A DNA stretch of 48,269 nucleotides from contig CAMNAJ010000002.1 in NCBI GenBank assembly GCA_946530935.1, positions 1-48,269 of the forward strand. Reading direction: 5' to 3'. How positions within the stretch are numbered: the first letter of the stretch is position 1; every line of letters starts with the position of its first letter. The notes beneath the pieces were generated by a model. That model saw nothing but the letters and a program-made list of their open reading frames with translations, was not told the DNA's origin and did no database searches. Made by a program: the position numbers and the translations under genes. Of the stretch, positions 37,903-43,331 are shown in pieces. This DNA comes from an uncultured Candidatus Saccharibacteria bacterium (GTDB lineage Bacteria; Patescibacteriota; Saccharimonadia; Saccharimonadales; Saccharimonadaceae).

Positions 37903-39201
37903 ATGAAGGTATTACGTAACACAATCGTAGTGCTACTGGCAATTTTGATGACGCTGTCTTGCTCCGTGGTGTTTTCTGGATGCTCTGTTCGGGCTTCCAC
38001 CGATCCTACTCCTAGCGAGCCTGCTGTCACCGAGATTCCGGCTGCAACATCGCCGGCTACAGTAGCACCTGACCCGACTATTCAGCCGAGTCAAGCCCCC
38101 GCGCCGGAGAATACTCCGGAAACAACCGCTCCGGAGACGACTCCGGATACAAACGAGGATAACCCCAATCATAGTGGCGGACCGTACCCGAATCCCAACG
38201 AGTATGTCCCCGACCCTAACCAGAGGTTACCGATCATCATCACGAAGTATCCATACGATGAGCTTTATCTTATGGATGGACAAGAGCGGACCAGTTTCAT
38301 AGCTCGCGCCGATAACTATGACTGGATTACCTGGGAGTTCAAAATTGGCGACGATGGCGTACCCTTCTCGACAGAAACAGCAATGAACCAGTATGGCATT
38401 TCCCTTAGTGGGACCGGTGATGAGCAGATTTATATCTACAACATCTCTTGGACGCTGGATGGTTGGCGAATCAGGGCCGTATTCCACCAGAATGGTGGAG
38501 AGGACACCTACACGACCTGGGCGAAACTTGCCTTGATGCAAGACGCCGTGCCGCCTCCGGAGATCACGGCTGACCCCGGAATGGAACCGACTTGGCCTGC
38601 ACCAGAGGATTACTTTAATCCCAGAACAATGTTCGTGCTCGGTATGGGTGTGAATATAAGATCTGGTCCTGGCGAACAGTATGGCGTAGTCGGCTCCAGG
38701 AACGCTGGCGAGACCGTTGAGGTTGAGGCTACGATTGGCAATTGGTATAAGATTGCCGGTTGGGACCATTACATCTCGATGGATTGGGTCACGTCTAACC
38801 GTCAAGATGTCATCAGCCATTTCGCCGAACAGTATGGCACAATTATGATTGTCGACATTTCCTATCAGCATGCCTATTGCTATGTTGGTGGGTCTCTGCT
38901 CGGCGATACTGACTGTGTGACTGGCGACTATTACTCTTCGCCGACGCCGACTGGACTTTACACCATGTGGTATTTCCGCGATCACTTCTACATGCAGGAC
39001 AACCCGAACTGGTGGTCCAATTACGCTTCGTTCTTTAACGGCGGCATTGCGATCCACGATGCGGACGCCTGGAGAAGTGAATACGGTGGGAGTATTTACA
39101 TCGGAAATGGTTCGCATGGTTGCGTGAATACACCGGCTTGGTTCTCTGAACTGGTGTATAACAACAGTTCCATCGGAACGTATGTCCTCGTCATTCCCTA
39201 A
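37903..39201 (+). CDS. Lipoprotein with Ig-like domain, SH3b domain and L,D-transpeptidase (YkuD) catalytic domain
   Basis: lipobox-like VVFSGC; T/P-rich linker; GMGVNIRSGPGEQYGVVGS SH3; IAIHDADAW...GSHGCVNTP YkuD motif. Confidence 0.85.
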   Translation: MKVLRNTIVVLLAILMTLSCSVVFSGCSVRASTDPTPSEPAVTEIPAATSPATVAPDPTIQPSQAPAPENTPETTAPETTPDTNEDNPNHSGGPYPNPNEYVPDPNQRLPIIITKYPYDELYLMDGQERTSFIARADNYDWITWEFKIGDDGVPFSTETAMNQYGISLSGTGDEQIYIYNISWTLDGWRIRAVFHQNGGEDTYTTWAKLALMQDAVPPPEITADPGMEPTWPAPEDYFNPRTMFVLGMGVNIRSGPGEQYGVVGSRNAGETVEVEATIGNWYKIAGWDHYISMDWVTSNRQDVISHFAEQYGTIMIVDISYQHAYCYVGGSLLGDTDCVTGDYYSSPTPTGLYTMWYFRDHFYMQDNPNWWSNYASFFNGGIAIHDADAWRSEYGGSIYIGNGSHGCVNTPAWFSELVYNNSSIGTYVLVIP

Positions 39202-39217
39202 TCCCTAGCACCTTAAT

Positions 39218-39247
39218 ACCCGAGAGAGTCTCTCGGGTATTTTTTAT
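39218..39247 (+). terminator. Terminator of L,D-transpeptidase gene
   Basis: ACCCGAGAGAGTCTCTCGGGTATTTTTT. Confidence 0.85.
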
Positions 39248-39546: not shown

Positions 39547-41160
39547 ATGTATATTAATCAACGGCTTTTAATTGGCAAAACTGCAGAAGGCAAAGAGCTT
39601 TCCATTTTGCCACAGATGGCAAACCGCCATGGTATCATTACTGGTGCAAGTGGTTCTGGTAAAACCATTACTCTTAAGGTGATGGCAGAGAGCTTTTCGG
39701 ATGCAGGAGTACCAGTGTTTCTTGCGGATGTAAAAGGTGATCTGGCCGGTACTGCACTAAATGGCGAAGTAAATGAAAATATCGAAAAACGCCTAAAAAA
39801 GCTTTCGCTCGAGAAGACTTTTGAAGCTAAGTCGTTCCCTGTAAGGTTTTGGGATCTTTATGGCATAAATGGACATCCGGTTCGGGCTACAGTAGAGTCA
39901 GTAGGGCCAGAAGTGCTTTCAATTATGTTAGGGCTTTCTGAAGCTCAAGAAGGCAACCTTGCAATTGCTTTTGCAATCGCTAAGGATGAGAATTTAGCCT
40001 TGATTGATCTTAAAGATTTACGTGCCGTACTCCAATATGTCTGCGAAAACCGTGATAAATATACTGCCAGATACGGCAATATCACCACTCAAAGTATTGG
40101 CGTAATCCAAAGATCACTCCTAACTCTCGAAAACCAAGGCGCCGATCATTTCTTTGGCCAGCCAGCACTCGACGTAAAGGACTTCTTCTCGCTCGATAAC
40201 GACGGAAGAGGTGTGATTAATATACTCCATGCCGTAACACTATTTGAGAGTCCAGATATGTATGCGGCGTTTTTACTCTGGCTGCTTACTACTCTATTTA
40301 CTACTTCACCAGAAGTCGGCGACCTCGATAAACCAAAGTTGGTATTCTTCTTTGATGAGGCACATCTGCTCTTCCACGATATGCCGGCTTATCGTTTAAA
40401 ACGTATTACTCAGGTTGTAAAACTGATTCGTTCACGTGGTATTGGCCTTTACTTTATTTCGCAAAGTCCAACTGACGTACCAGACGAAGTATTGGCGCAG
40501 CTTGGTAACCGCGTACAGCATTCTCTGCGCGCCTATACTCCTTCCGAACAAAAGTCGGTCCATGCCGCAGCGCAATCCTTCCGCAAGAATGATAAATTTG
40601 ATACCGAAAAAACAATCCTAGAGCTAGGCACTGGTGAGGCTTTGATTTCCTTCCAGGATGAAAAAGGTGCCCCAGAAATCGTAGAACGAGCTACGATTTT
40701 GCCGCCACAAAGTAGGATGGGTGCAATTGATGATATTACGCGAAATAAAGTGATTAATATGAGTCCACTTTGTGGTAAGTATGATGAGGCCGAGGACCCA
40801 GAATCGGCAGCTGAAATTATTGAACAAAAGGCTGAAACTAAAGCTGCTGAAGAGCAGGCTAAGCAAGAAGCCGAAGCGGCCGAAAAACAACGTGTGGCAG
40901 CTGAAAAAGCAGCCGAAAAGGCTGCTGAAGAGCAGGCTAAACTCGCTGAAAAAGAGCGCATAGCAGCCGAAAAAGCAGCCGAAAAGCTCGCTAACGAACG
41001 AGCAAAACAAGCGGAAAAAGAAGCTAAAGCCGCTGAAAAAGCCAAGGCTAACCAGAAAAAAGCCACTGATCGTTTGCTTGGTAATATTCTTGGCTCTGCT
41101 GGTAGTGCAATTGGCAGAAATATTACGAATAAGATATTTAAAGATATTTTCAAAAAATAA
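39547..41160 (+). CDS. HerA-like ATPase (DUF853 family) with Ala/Glu/Lys coiled-coil tail
   Basis: GIITGASGSGKTITLKVMAE; FFFDEAHLLF; SRGIGLYFISQSPTDVPDEVLAQLGNRVQH. Confidence 0.87.
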   Translation: MYINQRLLIGKTAEGKELSILPQMANRHGIITGASGSGKTITLKVMAESFSDAGVPVFLADVKGDLAGTALNGEVNENIEKRLKKLSLEKTFEAKSFPVRFWDLYGINGHPVRATVESVGPEVLSIMLGLSEAQEGNLAIAFAIAKDENLALIDLKDLRAVLQYVCENRDKYTARYGNITTQSIGVIQRSLLTLENQGADHFFGQPALDVKDFFSLDNDGRGVINILHAVTLFESPDMYAAFLLWLLTTLFTTSPEVGDLDKPKLVFFFDEAHLLFHDMPAYRLKRITQVVKLIRSRGIGLYFISQSPTDVPDEVLAQLGNRVQHSLRAYTPSEQKSVHAAAQSFRKNDKFDTEKTILELGTGEALISFQDEKGAPEIVERATILPPQSRMGAIDDITRNKVINMSPLCGKYDEAEDPESAAEIIEQKAETKAAEEQAKQEAEAAEKQRVAAEKAAEKAAEEQAKLAEKERIAAEKAAEKLANERAKQAEKEAKAAEKAKANQKKATDRLLGNILGSAGSAIGRNITNKIFKDIFKK

Positions 41161-41169
41161 AAGCATTAG

Positions 41170-41194
41170 AAAAGGCCCCGCTGGGGCCTTTTTT
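41170..41194. terminator. Bidirectional terminator
   Basis: AAAAGGCCCCGCTGGGGCCTTTTTT. Confidence 0.85.
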
Positions 41195-41215
41195 GGGGAA
41201 GGTGCGATTATTAGG

Positions 41216-42310
41216 AGGTTAGAGATTCATCTCAGTACCAGCCGTAATACGTCGTGCTGGTCTCTGTGGTCCAGGAATCAATTACCGTGTGAGTCTCGGT
41301 TGTAGTTACCGTGGTCTCACAGGCGGGCGGATAATATCCGCAACCGTCGAGTATGATGATGGCTTGGCCACAAGGATCGGGATTGCACGGCGGGCAAGGC
41401 GGTGCTGGGATGCACGGAGGGGGGCAGACAGGGGGACAGGGCTTGCACGGCGGGCAAGGATTAGGTACGCACTCTCTTACGAGCATGATTGCCCAGTTAG
41501 AGTACTTGACATTACCGTTGCAATCATGGAAGACTGCTCTGACATACCACCCGTTAATTCCCATGGTGATATTCCGAATGGTAATTTTTTCGGTGTCAAT
41601 GCCCTCAAGCGTCAGACCATAGTCCGAAATGGCTTTCTCGGCCGAGAATGGGCCACCGTTGTCGCCGATTTTAAATTCCCAGGAAATCCAGGAATAGTTT
41701 TCGGCATAGGACGTGAAATAGGTCGAAGACTGTCCATTGCGAAGAAGTGTTTCGTCAATAGGATGCTTCGTAATCCTGATGTCACTGTTGGTCGATACCG
41801 GGGCGGATGCCGCTGTACAAGGCGCGGGGTCATTGGCGCCAGGCTCAACAAAGAGAAACGCAGGATCGGTTTCGATGGTTTCTCCGTTCAGCTTGACAAA
41901 ATGGGCGCGAACTTTGAGACCACTCATGGTCTCGGGCACGTTTTTCAGGCGGATTCTCTGCTTGTCTGGAAACTCAACGATAAGGCCACTGAAATAATTC
42001 GGGGCATTTTCAGCCTCGATAACGTCGCCGTCGTCGGTTTCGAAGGTCCAGTATACCGAGTATACCTGGGAACCTTTGGGATAGGCCATAAAAATGGCTT
42101 TTCCTCCCGCTGGGATCGTCTCATTCGTGGGGTGTTTCTCCACGACAAACTCGCTTACAACTTCCGGACTACCGTCAGCAAATGCAGGCGGCGCTGTGAA
42201 CATCGCGATAGTGAGGATTAGAGAGATTGCGAGAACAAGGTTGAGGATCTTTTTCATCTTTTAAAACCTCCTAATTTTTAAAAGTACTAGAGCTGATGAA
42301 TCTCTAACCT
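41216..42310. repeat. Inverted repeat flanking the Ig-like secreted protein gene
   Basis: AGGTTAGAGATTCATC at 41216-41231 and its reverse complement GATGAATCTCTAACCT at 42295-42310, with further imperfect extension outward. Confidence 0.85.
41232..42257 (-). CDS. Secreted protein with two Ig-like domains and Pro/Cys-rich C-terminal tail
   Basis: signal peptide; two ExxxxP.NET...W.F...VRA.F repeats; CVPNPCPPCKPCPPVCPPPCIPAPPCPPCNPDPCG tail. Confidence 0.75.
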   Translation of the reverse strand: MKKILNLVLAISLILTIAMFTAPPAFADGSPEVVSEFVVEKHPTNETIPAGGKAIFMAYPKGSQVYSVYWTFETDDGDVIEAENAPNYFSGLIVEFPDKQRIRLKNVPETMSGLKVRAHFVKLNGETIETDPAFLFVEPGANDPAPCTAASAPVSTNSDIRITKHPIDETLLRNGQSSTYFTSYAENYSWISWEFKIGDNGGPFSAEKAISDYGLTLEGIDTEKITIRNITMGINGWYVRAVFHDCNGNVKYSNWAIMLVRECVPNPCPPCKPCPPVCPPPCIPAPPCPPCNPDPCGQAIIILDGCGYYPPACETTVTTTETHTVIDSWTTETSTTYYGWY

Positions 42311-42323
42311 CTAATCGACAGCA

Positions 42324-42352
42324 ATTATAGCAAGTTTTACCCCTTATTGCAA
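42324..42352 (-). promoter_or_regulatory. Promoter TTGCAA-17-TATAAT (extended TGC) for the Ig-like gene
   Basis: direct motif match on the minus strand. Confidence 0.65.
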
Positions 42353-42401
42353 GCATAAGCGTATTCTCTAAAGGGGTGTTCTAATATGTTATAATTAAGG
42401 T

Positions 42402-43331
42402 ATGATTCAGATATCAATTATTATACCTGTTTATAATGCTGAAAAATATTTGGAGCGGTGCGTAAAATCAGTTATTCTGGCACTCGAAAAAATCCACGGT
42501 GAAATTCTTTTAATTGATAATGGTTCAACAGACAAATCGGTTGAAATAATCCAAAAATTCCGAAAAAAATATCCGGGGGTAATACGCGCACTTCAATGCT
42601 TGAAGCCGGGAGCAGGAACTGCCAGAAACTACGGCGTAACAGAGGCCAGAGGTAATTATATCTGGTTCGTTGATGCTGACGACGAGATTAGAGAGGATGC
42701 TGTCTCAAAACTATTAACCGAGGCGGAACAAAAGAAGGCTGATCTTGTGATGCTCGGCATGAAAAGAGTATACAAAAATGGCCACACAGATTATTTGTCA
42801 GCGGTTAGACCAGACGAAGATAATTTTAAGAGCCGGTTTGTACGTTATGGGCTTGGCCCGGTGCAGGTTTTGGCAAAAAGAAACTGGTGGAACCAGTACG
42901 AATTTAAATTCAAAGAAGGTATCACTCAAGAGGATATGGAGATGATGTCGGCTTTGATTCTTTATACAGACAAATATGCTGCCGTAGATGAGCCGCTATA
43001 CTATTATTATCAAAATGATGATTCAGTACTGCACAAGACTACTTGGGACCCACACGCCTTTGATATCTTCCCTGCGCTCGAAGGTTTATATCAAAGATTT
43101 AAAGATGCTGAGGCCGAAAAAACCTATCACGATGAATTAGAATGGTTCTTTATTTGGAATCTTTTGATTGATTCAGCAAAAGATTTTGCTAAGTTTGAAG
43201 AAGGAAAACCGGGATTTGAACGTTCGAGGCAAATGCTAAAAAAATACTTCCCAAAATGGCGAAAAAATCGTTTTTTGAAACAAAAACCTTTAAAATTACG
43301 CATTAGAGTACGACTAAATTATAAAAAATAA
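42402..43331 (+). CDS. Family 2 glycosyltransferase
   Basis: ISIIIPVYNAEKYLERCVKSV...ILLIDNGSTDKS...GAGTARNYGVTEARGNYIWFVDADDE. Confidence 0.9.
   Translation: MIQISIIIPVYNAEKYLERCVKSVILALEKIHGEILLIDNGSTDKSVEIIQKFRKKYPGVIRALQCLKPGAGTARNYGVTEARGNYIWFVDADDEIREDAVSKLLTEAEQKKADLVMLGMKRVYKNGHTDYLSAVRPDEDNFKSRFVRYGLGPVQVLAKRNWWNQYEFKFKEGITQEDMEMMSALILYTDKYAAVDEPLYYYYQNDDSVLHKTTWDPHAFDIFPALEGLYQRFKDAEAEKTYHDELEWFFIWNLLIDSAKDFAKFEEGKPGFERSRQMLKKYFPKWRKNRFLKQKPLKLRIRVRLNYKK

Follow-up and report, generated by a model that had tools for sequence, protein, structure and literature searches.

Why does a gene carry, directly after its stop codon, the reverse complement of the first nucleotides of its own predicted transcript? 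The question arises from a gene for a 341-aa protein in the window (the whole analysed stretch of 48,269 nt), which is contig 2 of a 650-kb Saccharibacteria genome that is 83% complete. To our knowledge, post-transcriptional control in Saccharibacteria has been little studied. In the encoded protein a signal peptide is followed by two similar beta-rich repeats, and a stretch rich in Cys and Pro and a tail rich in Thr can be distinguished as well; the protein had been called Ig-like in the original prediction, and searches of Pfam and NCBIfam gave zero matches, while a single-sequence structure model was poor (pLDDT 50). A copy of the beta-rich repeat also resides in an L,D-transpeptidase gene of the window (37903-39201, plus strand), and a transpeptidase-like neighbour in genome G247 (G247:C1 14112-14843) contains two copies of it, compared with one in relatives.

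The 16-nt inverted repeat that had first drawn attention to this locus is real and is contained in two arms of 17 nt (41215-41231 and 42295-42311), which are 100% complementary and have 1063 nt between them. Since the ORF occupies 41232-42257 of the minus strand, the left arm lies directly 3' of the stop codon. The imperfect similarity reported further outward corresponds to CGATTA (42312-42317), which can pair, past a bulge of 4 nt, with TAATCG (41205-41210). The right arm had also been placed close to the transcript start, and it does lie 5-7 nt downstream of the +1 predicted at ~42316-42318 from the arrangement TTGCAA-17-TATAAT (minus strand, 42352-42324), so that the leader arm would form the extreme 5' end of the predicted transcript. 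The features of the locus are the following:

42324..42359, minus strand: predicted promoter, with CTTATGCTTGCAA (-35 TTGCAA, 42352-42347), a 17-nt spacer and the extended -10 TGCTATAAT (TATAAT, 42329-42324); from a consensus scan, kept in 6/6 family members.
42293..42317, minus strand: 5' leader element CGATTAGAGGTTAGAGATTCATCAG, containing the right arm (42295-42311) and starting at, or at most 1 nt from, the predicted +1; its core GAGGTTAGAGATT is identical in five species.
42265..42275, minus strand: Shine-Dalgarno (SD) region ATTAGGAGGTT, an exact 11-nt complement of the 3' element.
41232-42257, minus strand: ORF of 341 codons (341 aa).
41205..41231, minus strand: the whole leader-pairing post-stop stretch of the window, GATGAATCTCTAACCTC plus TAATCG across the bulge, including the left arm (41215-41231).
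41211..41227, minus strand: conserved 3' element AATCTCTAACCTCCTAA, in which a complement of the leader (AATCTCTAACCTC) overlaps one of the SD (AACCTCCTAA); unchanged among five species, with variable bases between stop codon and element.
41166..41199, no strand assigned: GC-rich hairpin with T runs between two convergent genes, read from the sequence; a similar hairpin is found in related genes.

The hairpin is probably an intrinsic terminator shared by the 341-aa gene and the convergent HerA gene.

A chance origin of the complementarity between leader and post-stop stretch is excluded. As a control we compared, for 216 genes from the window and 200 kb of one relative (two genomes), each gene's own upstream 90 nt with the 37 nt that follow the stop codon. 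Exact own-UTR complements of at least 11 nt occurred in 2/216 genes, both belonging to the family of the 341-aa gene (17 and 13 nt), and all others had at most 10 nt. The duplex energy of the leader with the post-stop stretch was reached by none of 37 other gene ends in the window and none of 177 in genome G219. Nor is there a general tendency of UTRs to pair, own pairs being no better than cross pairs over the 216 genes once this family is set aside. Counts of pairs in 14-nt windows that tolerate G-U discriminate poorly when the leader is purine-rich, as in the window and in one relative (L004), where 13 pairs are reached by 5/364 and 9/364 gene ends, respectively; for both genes we therefore relied on energies and exact runs. 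An Rfam search returned sub-threshold chance matches only, none of them at gathering score.

Exactly one gene is flanked by the inverted repeats, and this led us to consider a DNA element, either the ends of a mobile cassette, as the original prediction had offered as an alternative, or an invertible on/off segment with its promoter outside the repeats. The gene indeed appears to be inserted. In relatives without it, the HerA and glycosyltransferase genes abut or overlap (TAATG) in many of the cases examined, and in the window and four relatives these two genes are split (window 39547-43331) by an insertion of ~1.24 kb, in which the 341-aa gene lies in opposite orientation with its own predicted promoter and terminator; in a fifth relative, L012, the gene is found at a different locus. 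The repeat arms, however, are not the ends of this insertion. The insertion extends 54 nt and 90 nt beyond the arms and includes the promoter and terminator as well. Each genome holds one copy of the repeat, and no further copy of either arm was found in the window's genome with up to two mismatches allowed. A single orientation is seen in all assemblies of the gene family, and the repeat of L012 is imperfect and takes in part of the stop codon. No serine recombinase was found in the genomes searched, and tyrosine recombinases number just one or two per genome and are on other contigs, with none on the contig of the window. Given the internal position of the arms and the lack of a serine recombinase in these genomes, we regard cassette ends or an invertible segment as very unlikely.

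The pairing of the mRNA ends was examined by comparison among relatives. Five related genes were found (L003-L006 and L012), which with the window gives a family of six; a profile search for homologues in 394 family genomes yielded no additional full-length members, and viral contigs held no relative of the gene. The proteins of L003-L006 share 81-83% amino acid identity with that of the window, and their genes keep a 13-nt exact match of leader and post-stop stretch, with the cores GAGGTTAGAGATT and AATCTCTAACCTCCTAA unchanged, while at fourfold-degenerate sites no more than 40-44% of positions agree with the window. Between stop codon and core the four differ in their bases (ACAT, TCGA, ACAC and TCAA), which are mostly unpaired; four extra pairs next to the stop codon and the CGATTA pairs are specific to the window and absent from these four relatives. 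In all six members the -10 is followed by 5-6 nt that vary, and the sequence they have in common then starts at the predicted +1.

L012 (genome G310) is more distant, with 45% amino acid identity, and is located beside hrcA/grpE-like genes instead of HerA. Its leader GATTAGTGGGAGTC, which starts at the predicted +1, and its post-stop stretch TGATTCCCCCTAATC are written in different letters and pair at 13/14 positions, stop-codon bases included. The duplexes with leader (-20.4 kcal/mol) and SD (-12.8 kcal/mol) each beat all 363 other gene ends, and 13/14 pairs were reached in 17/20000 shuffles. The leader test becomes weaker without the stop codon, with 3/150 and 6/189 gene ends then scoring as well, so that L012 taken alone carries moderate weight. 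As the L012 leader can be aligned with the other members only through a gap, individual compensatory base pairs were left uncounted, and covariation is based on six members, four of them mutually close, that is mainly on the window versus the clade versus L012. That the pairing is kept despite near-random silent sites, and re-made with other letters in L012, suggests that selection acts on the pairing as such. Of the original prediction, the pairing of 5' and 3' UTR within one mRNA is thus supported by complementarity that persists in each of the five related genes, in one of them with changed sequence, whereas its cassette termini do not agree with a repeat that has no second genomic copy and lies inside the insertion; that the 3' element has the SD as a second partner had been overlooked.

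This second partner is complementary to the 3' element over 11 nt in the window (ATTAGGAGGTT/AACCTCCTAAT) and through TTAGGAGGTT/AACCTCCTAA in the four close relatives (10 nt in L004), and in L012 ATTAGGAGGAA and TTCCCCCTAAT match at 10/11 nt with one mismatch. The 17-nt core at the 3' side is the union of the 13-nt leader complement and the 10-nt SD complement, which overlap by 6 nt (AACCUC), and owing to this overlap the two pairings would be mutually exclusive. When the six mRNAs were folded in full length, all were predicted to form 13-21 expected pairs between leader and 3' element and almost none between SD and 3' element; with the first 24 nt, i.e., the leader, removed, 9-10.6 SD/3' pairs appeared. 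Two of the predictions call for caution: in the full-length folds the SD was often engaged, at least in part, by the beginning of the ORF, and for the isolated ends of L012 without the stop codon the SD pairing was preferred. In 6/6 members the leader helix was stronger than the SD helix, with a clear margin in five (leader -20.7 to -31, SD -14.7 to -16 kcal/mol).

One account of such an arrangement is a pure stabilising clamp, as known from hbs, in which the helix of leader and 3' element just shields the 5' UTR and the 5' end from nucleases and the SD match is a by-product of the similarity between two purine-rich stretches, leader and SD. The excess of the leader helix over the SD helix in every member and the start of the leader at the predicted +1 both speak for a clamp, as does the precedent of hbs itself, whose 14-nt 5'/3' UTR pairing is described as protecting from RNase Y (PMC7821165). 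A by-product, however, would hardly explain that the 3' bases CUAA beside the leader complement are kept in all five species and pair solely with the SD, or that in L012 the bases following the SD and their 3' partners have both changed (GGAGGTT/AACCTCC versus GGAGGAA/TTCCCCC). We consider the clamp the main rival to the reading developed below, and rather improbable.

We favour, with moderate confidence, a cis-acting RNA switch in which the leader pairs with the post-stop stretch and thereby keeps the anti-SD off the SD. Complementarity, conservation, the re-made pairing in L012 and the overlap of the two partners can be read from the sequences, whereas transcript start and folds are predictions and any effect on translation or stability is inferred. 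Some 20 nt at the start of the transcript would form a helix of 13-23 bp with the post-stop stretch. As long as the 5' end is intact and free, the leader would capture the 3' element and clamp the ends of the mRNA together, a state in which the helix may both hide the 5' end from 5'-end-dependent nucleases and hold the anti-SD away from the ribosome-binding site. If the leader were trimmed, cleaved or otherwise bound in response to some putative signal, the 3' element could shift to the SD and initiation would be blocked. Ribosomes that terminate at the stop codon would open up this helix again, which may couple the switch to translation. In a stricter version, the switch would sense the integrity of the 5' end: the mRNA would be translatable only while its first nucleotides hold the 3' anti-SD, and loss or occupation of the 5' end would release the anti-SD onto the SD, such that a damaged or targeted message silences itself. 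We propose this version tentatively and consider it doubtful rather than probable. The RNase J family includes 5'-3' exonucleases, and we count in favour of the switch that RNase J is present in five relatives, though fragmented in one of these; a model search in the window's own genome (83% complete) gave no match.

Two further readings place the function of the 3' element elsewhere. It might chiefly block the full-length mRNA, with translation requiring removal of the 3' end or a trans-acting factor, in the manner of icaR or hok. An anti-SD of 10-11 nt directly 3' of the stop codon in 5/6 members (10/11 nt in L012) would fit such repression, and icaR (PMC3868564) and aapA/hok (PMC6733600) are reported to act via 3' anti-SD elements; but the leader is the stronger partner here and keeps the 3' end away from the SD, and we find repression of this kind unlikely. 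The element might also act in trans, as a small RNA derived from the 3' end and carrying an anti-SD, with the leader as built-in sponge or autoregulatory target. It is in fact a general anti-SD, for which its own SD is equalled or surpassed as a partner by 9/177 other ribosome-binding regions in G219 and 23/150 in G310. Against this, we recognised neither a processing site nor a separate promoter, and the conserved core stops where the complementarity to its own mRNA stops, which leaves action in trans highly improbable.

Parts of the arrangement recur in other genes. The conserved promoter, searched in 174 genomes, was found in the six family members and in front of one unrelated gene only, which encodes a secreted SH3-domain protein (CTTATGCTTGCAA..TGCTATAAT at 1500-1535 of L044, G340:C31); genome G340 is without the 341-aa gene, and the SH3-domain gene showed no obvious 3' complement. 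An unrelated 134-aa gene (L023, G219:C1, 1574-2010) has in its 3' UTR ATACCTCCT, which complements the gene's SD AGGAGGTAT over 9 nt, and in a 112-aa gene (G310:C3, near 40730) the 3' UTR is similarly CU-rich and matches the SD over 8 complementary nt. In the window, the L,D-transpeptidase gene has a 3' UTR (39198-39230) with CTAGCACCTT in common with the 3' UTRs of the related genes (CCTAGCACCTTCCCC), and its TCCCTA complements part of the transpeptidase's own SD (TTAGGGAGG), a match that is absent from L016.

Few cases of bacterial mRNAs regulated via pairing of their own UTRs are known, among them icaR (PMC3868564), hbs and RNAIII (PMC7821165; PMC8406224) and hok/aapA (PMC6733600). In hbs of Bacillus subtilis, as related in reviews of the work of Braun et al. 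(2017), the two UTRs of one mRNA pair over 14 nt and the message becomes more stable (PMC7821165, PMC8406224), a short pairing like that of the 341-aa gene. The passages of these reviews cited here describe no second, exclusive pairing with the SD, and the gene and the phylum are unrelated. Moreover, the 3' UTR of hbs, and likewise the pairing of icaR, is reportedly unconserved in close relatives (PMC7821165), whereas the pairing of the 341-aa gene is kept and has been re-made. In RNAIII/hld of Staphylococcus aureus the 5' and 3' UTR also pair over a long range, but this is a regulatory RNA with a 26-aa ORF and, according to the same review, a 7-nt pairing (PMC7821165). In icaR of S. aureus, whose mRNA is protein-coding, an anti-SD in the 3' UTR binds the message's own ribosome-binding site, as proposed for the switch; there, the element has a UCCCC core within a long 3' UTR (390 nt past the stop codon) and no competing leader is mentioned in the account cited (PMC3868564), while in the 341-aa gene it follows the stop codon directly and has a stronger partner in the leader. 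The toxin mRNAs of hok/sok and aapA/IsoA share several features, namely pairing of the mRNA ends, mutually exclusive folds that control the SD and an anti-SD near the 3' end (PMC6733600). A type I toxin-antitoxin system of this kind does not agree with the secreted 341-aa protein or with the lack of any Rfam match at gathering score; the 341-aa gene has an ORF of 1 kb, encodes no small toxin and has no recognised antisense RNA, and the main partner of its anti-SD is the 5' leader. If the 5'-end-integrity version were true, it would represent a three-way form of 5'-3' UTR pairing in a bacterium of the candidate phyla radiation. Pairing between the UTRs of one mRNA is thus already known; what appears to be new, as judged from the complementarities, is that a single 3' element has two 5' partners whose pairings overlap, and the exclusiveness of these two partners would make the 341-aa gene a simple and testable candidate switch.
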